DNA from: a virus | Virus record (IMG/VR): IMGVR_UViG_3300046003_007336 | Span: 124,001 to 188,000 of that record | Strand: one strand, 5' to 3' | Length of the DNA: 64,000 nt | Shown here: positions 18,390 through 59,988 of the stretch, one piece after another | Position numbering within the stretch: position 1 is the first letter of the stretch | Layout of the letters: every line of letters begins with the position of its first letter | Position numbers and translations under genes: made by a program | Notes under the pieces: model-generated | Told to the model about the DNA's origin: nothing | Database searches by the model: none | What the model saw: the letters and a program-made list of their open reading frames with translations, nothing else

Positions 18390-18395
18390 TATTTA
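18390..18395 (-). promoter_or_regulatory. Late promoter box (GC-TAAATA-AG) overlapping the portal stop codon
   Basis: The TAA stop of the portal gene forms the first half of the TAAATA box on the minus strand, 23 bases before the next start codon. Confidence 0.55.
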
Positions 18396-20189
18396 GCCGA
18401 GCGGACCAGCGGGAGCCCCACCAGGAGGCGGAGCACCCGGTGCGCCACCATCGGCTGGCGGTGCACCCTCCATCTCGCCACCTTCCATATCCGGCTCGTC
18501 CATCGGCATGTCGTCCATACCCATGTCGCCCATCGGACGGATACCAACCGAAGACAGGTCCGCATCGTTCTCGCTTTCGGCCGGGCTGGAACCCGTCGCG
18601 CGCTTGAGCTTGGCGGCGTTTTCCTGTTTCCACAGCGTCTCGTTTTCGAGGATTTCTTCTTCCGTGAGGTTGAGGAACCGCTTGAGCTTGAAACGCTCAG
18701 AGAGAATCTTGATGCCAGCGACTTGGCTATAGACGGCGGCTTGCGCCTGATCGACTTCGATCTGACGATACTTGGTGAAGTTCTGCGGCGGGTTGAAGCG
18801 AATCTCGTAGAGGTTCGAATCGATCACCATCTCACCTGACTCTGCCAGGAACTTTTTGAACTCGAAATCGAAGACGGGGGCCAGCAGGGTCTGGAGACGC
18901 ATGCAGTATTTGTTGAAGCGGTATTCCTGAATCATCGCGGCGCCGAGCTTGCCGTCGTTGTAGGCACCCTGGCCGCTCTCGTCGTCGCCGAGCGGGAGGT
19001 ATGATTGCGGGATGCGGAGACCACGGGCCAGCTTCTTGGTGAACGCGGTCATGTCGCCGATCTCACCGAGGTTGTCTCCGCCCGGCAGGGTTTCGACCTT
19101 GGAGCCCCGGCCTTCAGCGGACTGTGCGAAGTAGAAATCCTCGTTGATCGACAGGGGATTGTAGGCCGCGTCGATCATGGAGTTGCCGCCGCCGCTGTGG
19201 TTGGGGATACGACGCTGGTGGATTTCGTTCTTCACCTGCTCGATGTGAGCACGAGCCTTGACGGGTGGCATGTTGCCGACGTCGATGTAGAAGACGCGGC
19301 GTTCTGGCGCGCGCTGGACGCGATAGATGATGACCGAGTCCTCAAGGAGTTCCTTCTGCTTGAAGGTCTTGAAAACCGGCTCCAGAACCGACTGACCGAA
19401 CGGCCAGTTGATGTCCATGCCGACGCTGAGGCTGAGGTGAACGACGTGATCTGCGTCGATGGCGAACAGTTCGTTCGACGGGTTGTTGTTCTGGCGCATC
19501 TGGCGCGGGTCACGCCCAGCACCAGCCATACCGAACGCACCGGAACCACCGCCCGACGACGGGCGAGCCGTGGTGATCGCGGCGCCGCCGTTGGCAGAGC
19601 GATACTGGCTCATGTCGGCCTTGGAGGCAGCGAACTTCGCTCCGTTGTTGTAGTCGAAACCACGGATGAAATACTCAATGGGCTTCTTGCCGTCTTCTTC
19701 ATCGACGCGGACCATCTCGACCGAGTAGTGATCGAGCCAGAGCCATTCAAAGGTCTCTGGGTCACGAAGGAAGAACGCATCGCCGTTCTTGATGCAGTTG
19801 CGGAACGTATACCAGAGACGTTTGCGGAACTCGTTCGTCTTGACCCACTTCGCCATGTTGGATTTGAGGATTTTGATCTCAGTCTCGGTGGCGGAATCGT
19901 CCAGATAGTGGATTTCGAACGGCTCGTCGTTCTGCTCCTCAGACTGGGTGCAGAAATCAGCGATAGTGTCGAGAGCCGCGTTGATGTCGGAGTCGCGGTC
20001 CATGTCGTCATACTGGTAATAACGCTGGATGCGGTTCGGGTGACCAGCGTAGACTTCCGGGAGGTAGCTCGAATAGTTTGAGCTTGTACCAGTGGGCTCC
20101 GACATCCTGTCGTAGAAACCCATCGCCTGGGACGCGCCGTTGTTATCTTGTGTCGGTTGAGCTACCGAGAAATACTTACGCCAACTCAT
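18393..20189 (-). CDS. 20: Portal vertex protein, T4 gp20-like
   Basis: Forms the dodecameric portal at one head vertex through which DNA is packaged. Segments typical of gp20 include RIQRYYQYDDMDRDSDINAA (about residues 57-76), a clip/stem region with YFIRGFDYN, and LEDSVIIYRVQRAPERRVFY followed by the long helix of the stem. The C-terminal 50 residues are Gly/Pro/Met-rich and low complexity. Length 598 compares with 524 in T4. I use ATG 20189; a GTG twelve bases upstream is in frame. A late box lies at 20250-20245. It heads the head-gene cluster. Confidence 0.95.
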   Translation of the reverse strand: MSWRKYFSVAQPTQDNNGASQAMGFYDRMSEPTGTSSNYSSYLPEVYAGHPNRIQRYYQYDDMDRDSDINAALDTIADFCTQSEEQNDEPFEIHYLDDSATETEIKILKSNMAKWVKTNEFRKRLWYTFRNCIKNGDAFFLRDPETFEWLWLDHYSVEMVRVDEEDGKKPIEYFIRGFDYNNGAKFAASKADMSQYRSANGGAAITTARPSSGGGSGAFGMAGAGRDPRQMRQNNNPSNELFAIDADHVVHLSLSVGMDINWPFGQSVLEPVFKTFKQKELLEDSVIIYRVQRAPERRVFYIDVGNMPPVKARAHIEQVKNEIHQRRIPNHSGGGNSMIDAAYNPLSINEDFYFAQSAEGRGSKVETLPGGDNLGEIGDMTAFTKKLARGLRIPQSYLPLGDDESGQGAYNDGKLGAAMIQEYRFNKYCMRLQTLLAPVFDFEFKKFLAESGEMVIDSNLYEIRFNPPQNFTKYRQIEVDQAQAAVYSQVAGIKILSERFKLKRFLNLTEEEILENETLWKQENAAKLKRATGSSPAESENDADLSSVGIRPMGDMGMDDMPMDEPDMEGGEMEGAPPADGGAPGAPPPGGAPAGPLG

Positions 20190-20244
20190 ATGTCGTCTCA
20201 CTTTTAAGTCAAGGGGCAGTATAGCAGAGCCCGCATTGTGAGAC

Positions 20245-20263: not shown

Positions 20264-23101
20264 TTAGGAATCTTTGATCTGGGTTAGGAGGACGTTTGTT
20301 CTCCGGGCAGCAGCCCGCTGTTCTTGCTGAATACCAAGCATGGCCTCGAACATTCCCTTCATATCCTTCTGGGTTTTGTTCAGTTGCTCGAACAATCCGG
20401 TGTTGGCGCGGTTGGCGTTTGTCTGTGCAGCCAGGGTTTCGTTGATGGTTCCCAGGCGGCCTTCGGTAGCCCTCGCAGCGTCTGGCGCGGTGGCGGGGCG
20501 GGCTCTGCCGAAGTTTCGGGCCAGCATGCCACCCAAGGCTGCTGGCATAGTCATGGGATTCAAGAGGGGGGCGGCGCGGGCCAATGGCCGTGCAGCATTA
20601 CCCGCCATGCGACCGAGGCCACCAACGAACCTGTCCGTGCGGTCGCGGCCAATCAGATCACGGCCCAGGATGGCCCCATCCATGAGGAGAGAGCCGATGG
20701 TTCCGATAACCGGAACGGTTCCCATAGCCGACGAGAGGCCTTCCATTCCGGCGCCGACACCGTCGCCCTCGGCGAGACGCATAGCAGCCAGACCGGCACC
20801 AACGCCGAGACCGACGCCGGGGATTTTCTTACCCAGGATGCCGCCAACGCGTCCTGCAACACGAGCACCGATGCGAGCCGCACCGCGCATACCAGCACGA
20901 CCACCCACACGACGAGCAACGCCACCGGCAACCCGCGCGACGCGAGACCCAGCAGATGCATGGGTTGCGACAGATGCGGCCGGGCGGGAGGCTCCACGAA
21001 CGCCGCCTGCGACGCTGCCAGCAACGTCAGTAGCCGCTCCGGCGATATCACCCATGAACATGCTTCCCATCAGGGCGGCACCGCCAACGGCTCCCGCGAG
21101 ACGACCGCGACCACCACCCATGAGGCGACCGGCCACACCGGCTGCACCGCGTCCACGACCCATGTGGCGGCCACCATCGGAAACGTCACGCACACGGCTG
21201 CCGAAGCTGCCACGGGCCGCTCCACCACCACCACGACCACCGCCACCACCGCCTCGTCCACCACGTCCACGACGGCCCCGGCCACGACCGAAGCCGCCGC
21301 CCATGCCACCATTGACGATCACGTTTGCGGCGTTGATGTTGACGTTGCTTCCCATCATGTGACGGAAAATGCCACCGATGACCTTCGGGCCCAGCCAGAG
21401 CAAAAGACCGGCACCGACGAGGGCGATCTTTTTGGCCGTGTCACCGAAGGTGTTGCCGATGAAATCCAGACCAGACGTGAAGGCATTGACGACGTGCCCG
21501 ATAGGGGCCGCGATCATGGTCAAGTAGCTGATAAGGGTCAGGATGCCCTTACCGAAATCTGCCGCGATATCGATGCCCGTCTGGAGAGTTTTGGCGAACC
21601 GCTCAACGTCTTCGGGTTTGAGATTGGCGAAGTAGTTGCCGATCTTTTCACCGAGCATCTTCGCAGCCATTTCGAAGTTCTTGAACGACTCGGAATCGAA
21701 CATGTAGGCCATGTTCTCATCGAGCTTCTCAAGGCTGCCGAACAGTCCCTCCAGAACGCTTCCGGCGAGCCGCTTGAAGATGTTACCAAGGGCCAGAAGA
21801 CCGTTGGTCAGGCCCTTGTTGGCCTCCTGCTGCTGAGCCAGTTGACGGAACTCGGCCGCCGACATGTCCTTCATCGCAGCATCCATGTTGATGATCTGCT
21901 CAGCGTGAGTGTTTCCGGCCAGAACTTGTAGGCGGAGAGATTCGCGGTTCGCGTCAACTTCGCGCTTGAATTTCTGCATGAAGGCGAACGAGAGGTCTTG
22001 GCCCTCAGTCGCCGACGACGCGTTGTCCATCGCGGAAATCCAGTCCTGCTGGGCCGAGATCATCTGTGGGAGGCCGCCCTGCGCGAACATCTCGGTGCCC
22101 TGGTTGAACAGGGCCGACTGATGACCGAGAGCGTTGGACATGAAGTTGGCCAGCAACTGGCCGGACTCGCCGGGGATAGCTGCCATGGCCGAGACGGCGC
22201 CGTTGGCGGCAGCCGAGAAGTTTTCCATGGAAGCCTCGGTCATTCCGCCCATGCGGGCCGTAATGGCGGCTTGAGACATGGCCTCCATGGTGGCCTTGAG
22301 GATTTCCTCACGGCCCTTACCGAATGCCTTGGAGAGATCACCCACGCCTTTGGCGAGCGCGATTGAGTTGGCCTGAGAGCGCGTCGAGTTGGCGGCTTCC
22401 ATGTTGCCGAAGTGACGCTGCTGTTCGAGGTATGACATCGTCACCTCGTTGAGGCCCTCAATGGTGTAGCCGTACATGCCGAATTTCTCGGTTGACTGGC
22501 GAACACCCTTGGCGAGTCGCATAACGTCCTTCTGTCCGAAGGCCGCGATGGTCTTGCCATTTTTCTTGATCAGGTCGGCGAAATCAGACAGCGGGAGACC
22601 AGCGGCAGCGGCAGACCGCGCCATGGTGAACAGGCTTCCGTTGAAGGTCTGACCGACCTCGGCTGTATCCCGGTAGGTGCGGATGAGGTTTGTCGCGCCG
22701 CCGATCATGCCGCCGATGACGCCACCCATGCCGAAGTATCCAGCGAACTTGGACAGTGACCGACCGGCCTCGTCTGAGTTCTGACCCAGGACGCCAACGC
22801 CCTTGGCTGCGCCCGACAGGGAACGACGCATGATGCCCCGTTCGTTCTCATCGAGCTTGTGGGATTTGCGGCTCTGGCCTTCGCGACGCTTCAGATCACC
22901 GTCGAGCTTCACCCTGGCCTTGGCACGATTGTCTTCTTCGCGATCACGGGCGCGGTCCTTTGCGCTCGTGCCAGAACCGGAAGACTTGGAGTTGCGATTC
23001 TTCTGATCGGCGAGCGAGCGCGTGACCCTATCGAGAGAACCAGTGTTCTTCCGAAGTTCATTCATGAACTGCTCAAACTGTTCGGAAGAAATATCGCTCA
23101 T
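20264..23101 (-). CDS. Large virion protein, tape-measure-like, with a Gly/Arg-rich central region
   Basis: A 945-residue protein. The first 110 residues are hydrophilic and helical. Residues 110-150 and 520-600 contain hydrophobic, Gly-rich segments that could cross membranes. Residues 600-780 are a low-complexity Gly/Arg/Ala stretch including repeated G-R-G and R-G-G units, and the C-terminus is again helical. Length, helical content, hydrophobic patches and position next to gp26/gp51 suggest a tail tape measure or another internal tail protein injected with DNA. This is inference; T4 gp29 (590 aa) shows no similarity that I can see. A late TAAATA box lies 29 bases upstream. Confidence 0.6.
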   Translation of the reverse strand: MSDISSEQFEQFMNELRKNTGSLDRVTRSLADQKNRNSKSSGSGTSAKDRARDREEDNRAKARVKLDGDLKRREGQSRKSHKLDENERGIMRRSLSGAAKGVGVLGQNSDEAGRSLSKFAGYFGMGGVIGGMIGGATNLIRTYRDTAEVGQTFNGSLFTMARSAAAAGLPLSDFADLIKKNGKTIAAFGQKDVMRLAKGVRQSTEKFGMYGYTIEGLNEVTMSYLEQQRHFGNMEAANSTRSQANSIALAKGVGDLSKAFGKGREEILKATMEAMSQAAITARMGGMTEASMENFSAAANGAVSAMAAIPGESGQLLANFMSNALGHQSALFNQGTEMFAQGGLPQMISAQQDWISAMDNASSATEGQDLSFAFMQKFKREVDANRESLRLQVLAGNTHAEQIINMDAAMKDMSAAEFRQLAQQQEANKGLTNGLLALGNIFKRLAGSVLEGLFGSLEKLDENMAYMFDSESFKNFEMAAKMLGEKIGNYFANLKPEDVERFAKTLQTGIDIAADFGKGILTLISYLTMIAAPIGHVVNAFTSGLDFIGNTFGDTAKKIALVGAGLLLWLGPKVIGGIFRHMMGSNVNINAANVIVNGGMGGGFGRGRGRRGRGGRGGGGGGRGGGGAARGSFGSRVRDVSDGGRHMGRGRGAAGVAGRLMGGGRGRLAGAVGGAALMGSMFMGDIAGAATDVAGSVAGGVRGASRPAASVATHASAGSRVARVAGGVARRVGGRAGMRGAARIGARVAGRVGGILGKKIPGVGLGVGAGLAAMRLAEGDGVGAGMEGLSSAMGTVPVIGTIGSLLMDGAILGRDLIGRDRTDRFVGGLGRMAGNAARPLARAAPLLNPMTMPAALGGMLARNFGRARPATAPDAARATEGRLGTINETLAAQTNANRANTGLFEQLNKTQKDMKGMFEAMLGIQQEQRAAARRTNVLLTQIKDS

Positions 23102-23201: not shown

Positions 23202-24077
23202 ATGACCAACATTGTTGACGGCCCCGAGACCGAAGTTGCGATCAACCCACTCACCAAGTATTTCCGCGTTCCGGGTCTCGACGTGACTCTGCCGACTCAG
23301 GGTATGTTCTTCCCCGCTGGCACGGCGTCTCTCCAGGAAGGCGGCACCGCCTCCATTCTGCCGATGCGGGCAGCGGACGAACTCCTACTCAAGCATCCCG
23401 ACATGCTGCTGAGCGGCAAGGCCATTGAGGAACTCATCCGTAGCTGCGTTCCGGCCATTCACGACCCCATGCTGGTAAGCACGCCGGACCTCGATGTCCT
23501 CCTGCTCGCTATTCGTGCAGCGACCTACGGGGACGAGATGGAGGTGCAGGCCGACTGCCCGAACTGTGGCGCCGAGAACCTCTTCGGAGCCAACCTGCCG
23601 ATGATCTTGCAGAACGCCAAGGTGATCACGGAGGAGGACATCCAGGTTCGCCTGTCAGACGATCTGGTCGTCTATGTCCGGCCCTACAACTTCAAAGACG
23701 CCACCCGGCTGTCGATCATGACCTTCAACGAGACCCGCAAGGTTCAGAATATCGAGAACACCGACGAGGAGCCCGACGCCAAGGTCAAGCAGATGAACAC
23801 CAGCATGGAATCGCTGACCAAGCTGTCGGTGGAAATCATGTCCGACTGCGTGGTGAAAATCATGACCCCGGATGGCGAGGTCACCGACCGCAACCATATT
23901 CGTGGCTTCGTGGTCAACACGACCAGGAACTGGACGTCTAAAATCGACGAAAAGCTTCAGGAACTCAACGAGAAGGGCATCGACAAGTCTGTCAAGGCAA
24001 CGTGCTCGTCTTGTAAGCACGAATGGGACACCAGCATCGAGTTTGACCCGGCAAGTTTTTTCGATTCCGGCTCCTGA
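23202..24077 (+). CDS. 26: Baseplate hub protein, T4 gp26-like
   Basis: A 291-residue member of the T4 baseplate family: LPTQGMFFPAGTASL (about residues 29-43), PMRAADELLLKHPDMLLSGK (about 56-75), the R-A-A-T-Y-G-D unit near 106, and two zinc-type Cys pairs CPNC (about 115) and CSSC (about 269). T4 gp26 has 208 residues. In T4, gp26 and gp51 act in baseplate hub assembly. The last codons contain the heptamer T-TTT-TTC, from which a -1 shift would extend the protein by 77 residues into the gp51-like frame. A late box and a good ribosome-binding site precede it. Confidence 0.88.
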   Translation: MTNIVDGPETEVAINPLTKYFRVPGLDVTLPTQGMFFPAGTASLQEGGTASILPMRAADELLLKHPDMLLSGKAIEELIRSCVPAIHDPMLVSTPDLDVLLLAIRAATYGDEMEVQADCPNCGAENLFGANLPMILQNAKVITEEDIQVRLSDDLVVYVRPYNFKDATRLSIMTFNETRKVQNIENTDEEPDAKVKQMNTSMESLTKLSVEIMSDCVVKIMTPDGEVTDRNHIRGFVVNTTRNWTSKIDEKLQELNEKGIDKSVKATCSSCKHEWDTSIEFDPASFFDSGS

Positions 24078-24082
24078 GGGCC
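24056..24082 (+). promoter_or_regulatory. Programmed -1 ribosomal frameshift site joining gp26 and gp51
   Basis: In the gp26 frame the heptamer T-TTT-TTC (24056-24062) is a canonical X-XXY-YYZ slippery site, five codons before the gp26 stop (24075-24077). A small hairpin GGCTC-CTGA-GGGCC (24069-24082) begins six bases downstream, the usual spacing of a stimulatory structure. The -1 frame leads directly into the gp51-like reading frame, which has no ATG, GTG or TTG start of its own before its conserved core. Confidence 0.7.
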
Positions 24083-24295
24083 ACGACCTACGAAGGGGTA
24101 CAGGCTCTGATCAACCAGTACCGGTATGAGCAGAGAGAACTCAGGCAGCACATCATTTCCATCCTGTGGCACATGCGGGGTGGGATTTCCCGCGAAGAAG
24201 CGTGGAGCCTTGCCCCGGTTGAGCGCGCTGATATAATGAAGTTCATCGAAGAACGAATGAAGATCGTCGAGAAAACAAAGCTACCCATGATATGA
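24062..24295 (+). CDS. 51: gp51-like baseplate hub assembly protein, expressed as a -1 frameshift extension of gp26
   Basis: A 77-codon reading frame between gp26 and the next gene. Its sequence (HIISILWHMRGGISREEAW, then APVERADIMKFIEERMK and a terminal TKLPMI) resembles the small gp51 'hub assembly catalyst' proteins of T4-like phages, with M-R-G-G-I-S and Pro-terminated end. No usual start codon lies before this core; CTG 24074 is the only weak candidate. The frame is exactly -1 relative to gp26 and begins at a slippery T-TTT-TTC, so the likely product is a 364-residue gp26-gp51 fusion made at low frequency. The coordinates give only the part after the shift. The stop overlaps the next ATG (24292). 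Confidence 0.65.
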   Translation, partial: RFRLLRATTYEGVQALINQYRYEQRELRQHIISILWHMRGGISREEAWSLAPVERADIMKFIEERMKIVEKTKLPMI

Positions 24296-24774
24296 CGAAA
24301 CGTATATCCGACAGCGAAATCTACGTCTCAGTCCCAGTTCCGAAGTCGATGGTTTCGGAGATGGGGGACCTCATGGCCGAGTTCTATCCAGGCCTACGCA
24401 TCAACGAAGTCAGCACCACTATGCTGGCTTTGCTCTTGCTCTCAAGGGGAGACAACGTTGAGTGGATGCGTGGCATGGTGGATGAAATCAACCTGCCAAA
24501 CTACGAAATCGCCGCCCGAGAACATCCCGTGGAAGTAGAGGGCAACACGACCGCCAATCTGGGTAAAATTCTATGGTGCGCTCAGAACGCATCTGCGGGA
24601 TGGAGCTATCGGTTCGTTAGAAAACGTCGGAGGAATGCCGAACTCGTCACGGTCGGCCATGTTGAGTTCAGCTTCACCGAGCCCCTCGACGTATCGAAGT
24701 TTTTCTTCAGCTTCACGGACGCAAAGCCTATCGACTCTTCTGAATCTCTTCGATGTGGATACCAGCAAGGTTGA
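24292..24774 (+). CDS. Unknown phage protein, 160 aa
   Basis: Coupled to the gp51-like frame by an ATGA overlap and therefore part of the same late transcript. The N-terminal half is helical (PKSMVSEMGDLMAEFYPGLR, then TTMLALLLLSRGD). The C-terminal part reads VEFSFTEPLDVSKFFFSFTD, the strand-turn-aromatic arrangement shared with other small proteins here. Function unknown; its late expression suggests a tail-assembly role. The 3' end overlaps convergent RNase H by 47 bases. Confidence 0.65.
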   Translation: MTKRISDSEIYVSVPVPKSMVSEMGDLMAEFYPGLRINEVSTTMLALLLLSRGDNVEWMRGMVDEINLPNYEIAAREHPVEVEGNTTANLGKILWCAQNASAGWSYRFVRKRRRNAELVTVGHVEFSFTEPLDVSKFFFSFTDAKPIDSSESLRCGYQQG

Positions 24775-57702: not shown

Positions 57703-59128
57703 AGCGGCATAGCTCGTAGAACGACGCCATCTCTGGGAAAGTCGCCAGGAAATCTGTTCCTCGGCGCCGGTCATGCTCTGAGAAAAAGAGGAAGAAATCT
57801 GCTCGCTCCCTCTTGGCCCGTTGCCCTGACGGTGCAGAGGCAAACTCGCCTTTGATGACGTTGTAGAGCCGTTCGAACTTGTCGATCTCCCAGAGATGGA
57901 AGCCGTTGTATCCCACGTCCGGGTTCTCGGGCTGAATACGGTGATCGCGCATCCATTCCAGGGTTGCGGCAACGTGTTCAAGATAATCGTCCGTCAGGAT
58001 GTAGGCGGCCTGATGCTTGGGGTCTCGCAGGTAGGGGAAGTCCATCAACAGAGGGGCGTGAGAGGGGTCTGTGGCCCTTCCGAGGTGTTTTACTCTCAAC
58101 GCCAGCATGTCCGCCAAGAAAGGCGTGTAGGACGTCACGGAGAGGGCGTTGAAGGTGCTCATGATGACGAACGAGACGTCCGGGCAATCTTGCAGGAAGG
58201 AATCGATGCCAGCCAGCCACTTCGCGTAGTCGAGGCCGTTTCGGATGTATTCGGCCTTAGCTCCATGAGCCTCCGCGCTTGTGTAGATGACTAGCTTCTT
58301 GACCGAGCCCGCATCGGTGATCTTCTGGCAACGGTCTAGGAACTTGGCCATCAGGGGAGCCGGGACGCACATGTTGGTGTTGATGGATAGTTCGAGGTCT
58401 GGGCGAGGGTTGGCGATAATCCAGTCCAAGACCTTGAAGGTGTTGGGGTTCATCAAGGGCTCGCCGCCCGTTATGCGGAAGTGTTGGAGGGCTGGGTAGA
58501 GTTCGGGCCACCACTTCCAGAAAGCTTCCACGTAGGGATTTGCTTCCCGGTTCGGGATGGGCATCATGCCCTTGGCCTTCATATCTTCGAGGTTGTTGAA
58601 CTTTCTCGACGTCGGGTACGGGCCATATTTCTCGATTTCAGCCATCCACATCGACGACACCACCGGCATGCAGTAGGAGCATTTGAAATTGCACGCATGG
58701 CCGAAACTGACTTCAACGTAGGACGGCTGAACGTTGGCATCCCACTCGGTCTTGCCTAGTCGGTCGATGTCTGGAAAGGCCCACGCTTCTGCTGATTTGT
58801 AGACACGGTCTGAAGGATTGTTGGACCCGTTGTCCTCGACCCTCCAACAGTAATCGCATTCCTCGGGGCGTTTGCCATTCAGCATGAGGCGACGCTGCTC
58901 TTTTTTGAAGGCCGAGTTGTGAAGTGCGTTTGGGTTGGCCAGCACTTCTTCGACGCTGACCTTGTGGACGGCCGGGTGGTGGCAAGAATGGGTGGTGCCG
59001 TTCTGGAGGTGGATGGTGACCTGATTCCATTTCGCGGCGCACATGGTCGGCGACACCGCGTCGAGGGCGTCAAGGGTCTTTTGAAGACGGGGTTCTTCGC
59101 TCGACCTGAGCTTCAGGCGATGAATCAT
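57686..59128 (-). CDS. Radical SAM protein (twitch-domain type)
   Basis: A 480-residue protein with the 4Fe-4S-binding cysteines GHACNFKCSYC (C-x3-C-x2-C) at about residues 147-157. A SAM-binding strand follows (HFRITGGEPLMNP, about residues 217-229). An N-terminal Cys-rich part (CAAKWNQVTIHLQNGTTHSC, then ECDYCW) and a C-terminal region without extra clusters follow the layout of phage-associated radical SAM proteins next to glycosyltransferases. The substrate is unknown. It heads a probable surface- or DNA-modification cluster (57.7-63.3 kb). It overlaps the spike gene by 17 bases, convergently, and is coupled to the upstream gene by ATGA. Confidence 0.8.
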   Translation of the reverse strand: MIHRLKLRSSEEPRLQKTLDALDAVSPTMCAAKWNQVTIHLQNGTTHSCHHPAVHKVSVEEVLANPNALHNSAFKKEQRRLMLNGKRPEECDYCWRVEDNGSNNPSDRVYKSAEAWAFPDIDRLGKTEWDANVQPSYVEVSFGHACNFKCSYCMPVVSSMWMAEIEKYGPYPTSRKFNNLEDMKAKGMMPIPNREANPYVEAFWKWWPELYPALQHFRITGGEPLMNPNTFKVLDWIIANPRPDLELSINTNMCVPAPLMAKFLDRCQKITDAGSVKKLVIYTSAEAHGAKAEYIRNGLDYAKWLAGIDSFLQDCPDVSFVIMSTFNALSVTSYTPFLADMLALRVKHLGRATDPSHAPLLMDFPYLRDPKHQAAYILTDDYLEHVAATLEWMRDHRIQPENPDVGYNGFHLWEIDKFERLYNVIKGEFASAPSGQRAKRERADFFLFFSEHDRRRGTDFLATFPEMASFYELCRSIADT

Positions 59129-59988
59129 TCGTTCCTCAGGCGGAAAGTTTCGCGGAAGAATACCGAAGCCTGTTCGTCCAGAACAGGGATGACGAAGCCG
59201 GTCTTGCGTTCGATTTCGTATCCGTGCTTTTCCATTGCTTCGACGACATCAGTATGCTGCACGGACTTCCAGAGGCCGTCGAACCAGTCATAGTCGCGAA
59301 CCTGGACGTGATCGAAACTGGGGTCAAGCATCATCGCCCAACCCATGCGGGCCCCCAGCATCGCCCATACCCCATGAGTGACGTCGGCGCCGACGCAGGA
59401 CCAGACCCGGATGTTGCGGATGTTGGTCGCGTGGAGAGCCTTCATCTCGTTGGCGGGAACCCGCATGCCCCGGTCGAGCGTGAGCTTCACGCCTTCGCGG
59501 AAGCCGACTCGGAAAGCCTGATAGGGCGAACCGTTGTTCCACACTTCAGAGAAGCATTTGTTGATGCCCTTGTATTCGTCCTGCCAGCAGAAATCGACCG
59601 CATGGGTGGGGTTGCTGGACGTCTCGTGACCGACGCCACCCGCGAGGACGAATGCCTTGCTCCAGAGCTTCAGACCGCCGTTTCCGTACATGAGACCGTT
59701 CATCATGTTGATGCCGTTCCACGAGAAACAATCGTTTGGACGCGCCGGGTCTAGTTCGATGGTCTCGTTGAAGAACTCCGGCATGACGATGTTGTCGGCG
59801 TCTACAGAGATGAACCAGTCGGTCTCGGACTGTTCGGCGCAGGCGCGGTGAGCGGCATCGAAGCCCTTCACACCGTGGACCCGCTTGGCCCACGGTGCTT
59901 TCTCCAACAGGTCGGCGTAGTGTTTTTCGGCGTTGGGCTCATCGTATGAGATGAAAAAAATGTCGAACTCAGTCAGGGAATGCTGCAC
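59125..59988 (-). CDS. Glycosyltransferase, GT-A-like
   Basis: A 287-residue protein with FISYDEPNAEKHYADLLE near the N-terminus and TDWFISVDADNIVM (about residues 55-68), where D-A-D is the metal-binding D-x-D of GT-A enzymes. A C-terminal His (GYEIERK region upstream of FVIPVL) may complete the site. It probably transfers an activated sugar to a phage or host acceptor. Start ATG 59988. Coupled to the radical SAM gene. Confidence 0.75.
   Translation of the reverse strand: MQHSLTEFDIFFISYDEPNAEKHYADLLEKAPWAKRVHGVKGFDAAHRACAEQSETDWFISVDADNIVMPEFFNETIELDPARPNDCFSWNGINMMNGLMYGNGGLKLWSKAFVLAGGVGHETSSNPTHAVDFCWQDEYKGINKCFSEVWNNGSPYQAFRVGFREGVKLTLDRGMRVPANEMKALHATNIRNIRVWSCVGADVTHGVWAMLGARMGWAMMLDPSFDHVQVRDYDWFDGLWKSVQHTDVVEAMEKHGYEIERKTGFVIPVLDEQASVFFRETFRLRNE

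Follow-up and report, generated by a model that had tools for sequence, protein, structure and literature searches.

Evidence for −1 programmed ribosomal frameshifting at a gp26-like, probable tail assembly chaperone locus

A gp26-like phage gene that ends a few codons after a slippery heptamer, with an open −1 frame running on beyond its stop, raises the question of whether two separate genes or two lengths of one protein are encoded. Such a locus lies in the 64-kb stretch of DNA analyzed here, referred to as the window, which was taken from a 198.5-kb virus record of a giant T4-like phage, one of the Atu_ph07/Phosso-like jumbo phages. An initial annotation had proposed that gp26 and gp51 are linked by −1 frameshifting, as an equivalent of the lambda G/GT chaperone pair. 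On the basis of sequence comparison, −1 programmed ribosomal frameshifting at this locus is close to certain, and it is very probable that the locus encodes a tail assembly chaperone (TAC) in two lengths, TAC-N and TAC-NC, through −1 slippage on T_TTT_TTC.

Results

The slip site and the two reading frames

The gp26-like ORF ends in GCA AGT TTT TTC GAT TCC GGC TCC TGA, with the TTC of the heptamer (24056-24062) as the fifth codon before the stop (Table 1). The −1 frame opens at 24062 (CGA...) and stops at TGA 24293-24295, across the ATG of the next ORF at 24292. The first ATG, GTG or TTG of the extension is codon 37, the M of MRGGIS, in the middle of the predicted domain. The initial annotation had described these elements correctly: the heptamer in slip phase five codons before the gp26 stop, and a 77-codon −1 frame with no usual start before MRGGIS and an ATGA end.

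Table 1. Features of the chaperone locus and its neighbors in the window
Feature	Position	Strand	Basis
gp20-like portal protein, conserved synteny	18393..20201	-	PF07230 E=1.5e-97; order as in RaK2, CBB, 121Q, XaC1
Probable tape measure protein, 945 aa, divergent neighbor	20264..23101	-	tblastn homologues, relatives' annotation
TAC-N, gp26-like probable tail assembly chaperone, short product (291 aa)	23202..24077	+	PF12322, phrog_150, AlphaFold/BFVD
Slippery heptamer T_TTT_TTC	24056..24062	+	in-frame X_XXY_YYZ; T_TTT_TTY 191/194 loci, A_AAT_TTT 3/194
TAC-C, −1 frame extension, 77 codons, giving the predicted 364-aa fusion TAC-NC	24062..24295	+	homologues, pN/pS, predicted helical domain
Candidate stimulatory hairpin GGCUC 24069-24073 / GGGCC 24078-24082	24069..24082	+	-7.2 kcal/mol
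Zero-frame stop TGA, short product	24075..24077	+	sequence
ATGA junction, −1 frame stop overlapping start of next ORF (24292-24774)	24292..24295	+	sequence

The short form matched PF12322 T4_baseplate (E=2.4e-18, 67 bits against a cut-off of 24.5) and phrog_150 'baseplate hub' (E=2e-23). Its AlphaFold model (pLDDT 93.6) gave BFVD fold matches down to 2e-27 to phage proteins named gp26 or 'baseplate hub assembly', including gp26 of Aeromonas phage 25, and a fold search against solved structures gave no match. The extension is predicted to be all-helical (pLDDT 91) and has homologues in Atu_ph07, Phosso and SCTP-2. No convincing family was found for it in Pfam and PHROGs, and Foldseek returned only weak matches, among them proteins named as chaperones of tail assembly or of the tape measure (E > 2).

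The heptamer is not expected by chance at this place. The window has 58% GC, its long ORFs encode Phe by 600 TTC and 102 TTT codons, and T is the last base of 17% of their codons. The expectation for T_TTT_TTY is about 4e-5 per codon position, which comes to about 0.001 for the final 25 codons of a single gene. The length of the open −1 frame was considered as evidence and rejected, since 47% of the long ORFs in the window have a −1 frame that runs for at least 72 codons past the stop; a long open −1 frame alone is therefore weak evidence. The case from this single genome is suggestive, and the comparative data decide. The window has a second in-frame T_TTT_TTC, in a 287-aa ORF (59124-59988, minus strand), but there the heptamer is close to the start of the ORF instead of its end and is probably coincidental.

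Conservation of the slip site in related phages

In order to examine the junction in relatives, we surveyed 194 loci (105 of them non-redundant), comprising 18 from phages and the window and 176 from IMG/VR. The 14 family members proved too diverse for one joint alignment to be used in scanning the collection, and three sub-group alignments were used instead, one for each of the three scans that gave the IMG/VR loci. The phage relatives, at 26-38% protein identity, were Atu_ph07, Phosso, SCTP-2, XaC1, 121Q, CBB, RaK2, XacN1, Vibrio 2.275, PA5oct, RAS14, PHA46 and pEa_SNUABM_47; the related phages XbC2 and GAP32 and the more distant P-SSM2 and C48C1 were also compared.

All named phage relatives carry T_TTT_TTY at a C-terminal FF pair, 0 to 11 codons before the stop, followed by a −1 extension of 60-80 codons. 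The initial annotation had suggested aligning related junctions for conservation of the heptamer, and this comparison bore the proposal out: T_TTT_TTC or T_TTT_TTT occupies the site in 191 of 194 loci and A_AAT_TTT in the other 3, such that every locus (194/194) has an in-frame X_XXY_YYZ heptamer. The loci with A_AAT_TTT (L057, L059 and L061) have a different tandem-slip heptamer and keep the −1 extension. At other Phe codons of the surveyed genes, TTT after a T-ending codon is expected at about 17%, and the slip pattern occurs at 3 of their 57 other FF pairs.

These data also bear on an artifactual origin, in which an indel introduced by sequencing or assembly would break a single gene of the contig in two, as might be considered for a metagenome-derived record. 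The identical sequence is present in two further contigs, and phage genomes at about 26-38% protein identity change frame at the same codon; the indel explanation, to which we assign a negligible probability, is already refuted by these independent genomes.

Constraint on the −1 frame and the question of an independent start

In every group, the T-type loci show zero entropy over bases one to six of the heptamer, and at the slip the position-specific variability switches from following the codons of the 0 frame to following those of the −1 frame. Pairs of moderate divergence gave a pN/pS in the −1 frame of 0.23 for the window group and 0.16 for cyanophages; the respective values were 1.3 and 0.9 for the 0 frame and 2.3 and 2.5 for the +1 frame. 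An R-x-R-L-L motif directly after the slip is conserved in the −1 frame. Together with the profile matches given below, the comparisons establish the slip site and −1 constraint from that site on, and show the family to be homologous to T4 gp26 and gp51.

The main alternative is that the −1 ORF is a separate small gene with its own start, either a non-standard CTG overlapping the TGA or an internal ATG, expressed by translational coupling. The ORF is often annotated as separate, Atu_ph07 and Phosso have an ATG overlapping the gp26 stop, and 36 non-redundant loci, mostly from cyanophages, have an ATG at extension codon 3. The absence of a start codon in relatives, which the initial annotation had also proposed to check, holds for PA5oct, whose extension contains no ATG, GTG or TTG anywhere, but not for these phages. 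However, constraint is already present from the slip on, ahead of every start; in the window the first start, at codon 37, falls in mid-domain; early starts, where present, are mostly without a Shine-Dalgarno match; and a separate gene would leave the invariant heptamer without an explanation. Because of the constraint from the slip on, the start-free extension of PA5oct and the few Shine-Dalgarno matches, independent initiation is unlikely as a general mechanism, and we consider a separate gene at this locus highly improbable. In phages with an ATG beside the stop, independent starts may give additional product.

RNA structure downstream of the slip site

The window hairpin has 5 bp, a 6-nt spacer after the heptamer and the zero-frame stop codon inside its loop. 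The GC-rich hairpin that the initial annotation placed six bases downstream is thus present as described, but within the window it does not exceed chance: it is not stronger than in dinucleotide shuffles (z -1.2 for 25 nt and about 0 for 60 nt), and a best-helix test gave p of about 0.5. In many relatives, however, longer hairpins with the same spacing are real. Across the window group, the RNA 3′ of the slip folds more stably than controls taken within the genes, at a mean z of -1.60 versus -0.19 (p = 3e-6). A significant helix about 6 nt after the heptamer is found in half of the loci in this group, with paired changes in the helices (e.g. GGCUCCUGA/UCAGGAGCU, GGCUCUUGA/UCAAGAGCU and AGGAUCUUAGCU/GGCUGAGAUCCU).

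The cyanophages have a hairpin 5-6 nt downstream that is significant in 90% of loci and stronger than that of the window group. RNAalifold gave a weak consensus fold for them and was replaced by direct pair counts and helix tests; one pair of the hairpin is U-A in 36, G-C in 12 and A-U in 4 of 60 distinct sequences. In loci of the cyanophage type (L123-L202 and L024), the conserved hairpin contains the ATG annotated as the start of P-SSM2 gp51, and this start may be occluded by the hairpin or unused. The RaK2-like group showed no significant downstream hairpin in stability and helix tests.

The homopolymer of six T could suggest slippage by the transcribing polymerase instead of the ribosome. 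Six T is a short run for slippage by bacterial RNA polymerase. The three A_AAT_TTT loci keep the pattern for a tandem tRNA slip and not the T6 run, and the covarying hairpins lie at ribosomal spacing. We therefore regard transcriptional slippage as extremely improbable, and ribosomal frameshifting is retained as the explanation of the site.

Gene neighborhood

The initial annotation had taken the divergent 945-residue gene for the tape measure, and both position and homologues agree with this. The ORF has tblastn homologues at the equivalent place in relatives (E down to 2e-42), which supports the assignment, and the corresponding neighbor in RaK2 and pEa_SNUABM_47 is annotated as 'putative tape measure protein' or is similar to one. 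At residues ~595-650 the probable tape measure protein is of low complexity and rich in Gly and Arg (GRGRGRRGRGGRGGGGGGRGGGG), a composition that seems atypical of tape measure proteins.

The gp26-like gene adjoins the probable tape measure gene, as is expected of a tail chaperone gene. The order of portal, tape-measure-like protein, divergent gp26-like gene and extension is common to RaK2, CBB, 121Q and XaC1. A TAC gene between the tail tube and tape measure genes on one strand, which is common though not universal, is absent from the examined loci of the RaK2/Phosso type, where the tape measure gene is divergent and no tube gene directly adjoins; the order tube-TAC-tape measure is present in distant relatives such as LIS04.

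Relation to T4 gp26 and gp51

When searched against the 124 ORFs of the T4 region, a cyanophage fusion profile matched T4 gp26 at 1e-11 and T4 gp51 at 5e-6, and a profile of the cyanophage extension alone ranked gp51 first (3e-5). A pooled profile matched T4 gp51 at 1e-3, and the window-group profile also ranked gp51 first, but at E 0.43; the direct similarity of the window family to T4 gp51 is weak (E 0.24-0.43). The match of the extension, which for the window group is tentative, is limited to the C-terminal part of T4 gp51, so the −1 ORF itself is not 'gp51' as first named. The best reading of these profile matches is that T4 gp26 corresponds to the short form and T4 gp51 to the whole long form. 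The proposed −1 frameshifting and the analogy to the lambda G/GT chaperones are strongly supported, but the members of the pair would be a gp26-like short form and a gp51-like fusion. PMC3004832 names both T4 proteins among the hub assembly chaperones, gp51 being required for assembly and absent from the particle.

Relatives continuing in the +1 frame

In a further set, the gp26 family continues in the +1 frame: BRock, LuckySocke, GiJojo, pSt2308, SP-15, LIS04, SagM-GXN1, Mel-JY01 and LR756508 (loci L020, L021, L022, L026, L205-L208 and L210). Besides one uncultured phage, the set holds phages of Streptomyces, Bacillus, Listeria, Streptococcus and Microcystis. Close to the end of the gene, CTG TTT C is common to the four Streptomyces phages; some genes have TTT-C at the FF position, and LIS04 has TTT A; SP-15, LIS04 and SagM have the codons CGA TTY in common, just ahead of the stop. 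These are candidate slip sites only, for possible +1 or −2 recoding. Scans of IMG/VR for more +1-type relatives of SP-15 and SagM gave almost nothing.

We tentatively suggest that the direction of recoding may have changed within one chaperone family, from sequence patterns that leave this somewhat in doubt: −1 at T_TTT_TTY in T4-like phages of Gram-negative and cyanobacterial hosts, +1 (or −2) in the Streptomyces, Bacillus, Listeria, Streptococcus and Microcystis phages, and two genes replacing recoding in T4.

Discussion

In the proposed mechanism, the majority of ribosomes would complete the gp26-like ORF and release the 291-aa TAC-N. In what we infer to be a minority, the two Phe-tRNAs on T_TTT_TTC would slip back together by one base; translation would resume at 24062 with CGA and terminate at 24293, and the resulting TAC-NC of 364 aa would carry an additional helical domain beyond the shared part. 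If the lambda gpG/gpGT pair is a guide, coating of the tape measure protein would fall to the part common to both forms, and recruitment of tail tube subunits to the added domain.

Tail chaperones of T4-like phages are reportedly the subject of Vladimirov, Gautam and Davidson (Virology 566:9-15, 2022), with T4 itself said to have separate short and long genes; the abstract is said to describe frameshifting as conserved in several T4-like groups. Frameshifted T4-like tail chaperones are already known, and the window locus adds a well supported case, which gains strength from the survey, the PA5oct extension without start codons, the covarying hairpins and the A_AAT_TTT variant. Such data show T4-like phages at large to be no exception, and they support the published view of gp51 as the long tail chaperone. 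In many jumbo phage and cyanophage records, a joined feature should take the place of the separate −1 ORF call ('gp51' or hypothetical). The initial annotation knew of no such report for T4-type gp26/gp51, which was mistaken, as T4-like tail chaperones were described by Vladimirov, Gautam & Davidson 2022 (per PMC10885494 and PMC12846349). Citing that work, PMC10885494 states that certain T4-like phages do not frameshift and have a short TAC gene beside a longer, fused one, and PMC12846349 cites it for T4-like phages whose TAC-N genes contain polyT slippery sites.

The closest known systems are these T4-like tail chaperones, which share the protein family, the scheme of a short and a long form and the polyT slippery site in TAC-N; T4 differs in having two separate genes, whereas the window phage has one frameshifted pair. 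Lambda gpG/gpGT likewise consists of a short form and a minor form extended by −1 frameshifting, encoded beside the tape measure gene. It differs in its slip site and in the tube gene that adjoins in lambda but not here, while the window short form is larger, has CxxC pairs and is divergent to the tape measure gene. The tail chaperone of Vandenendeviridae and Andersonviridae, as presented in PMC12846349, also has a poly-T slippery site (GTTTTT motif) and a −1 frame open through a region annotated as a separate ORF or as intergenic, but these are other phage families than that of the window phage. Finally, cyanophage 'gp26' and 'gp51' (e.g. P-SSM2) share the heptamer and the arrangement and are annotated as two genes, differing from the window locus in a shorter extension of about 60 aa, the early ATG and a strong conserved hairpin.
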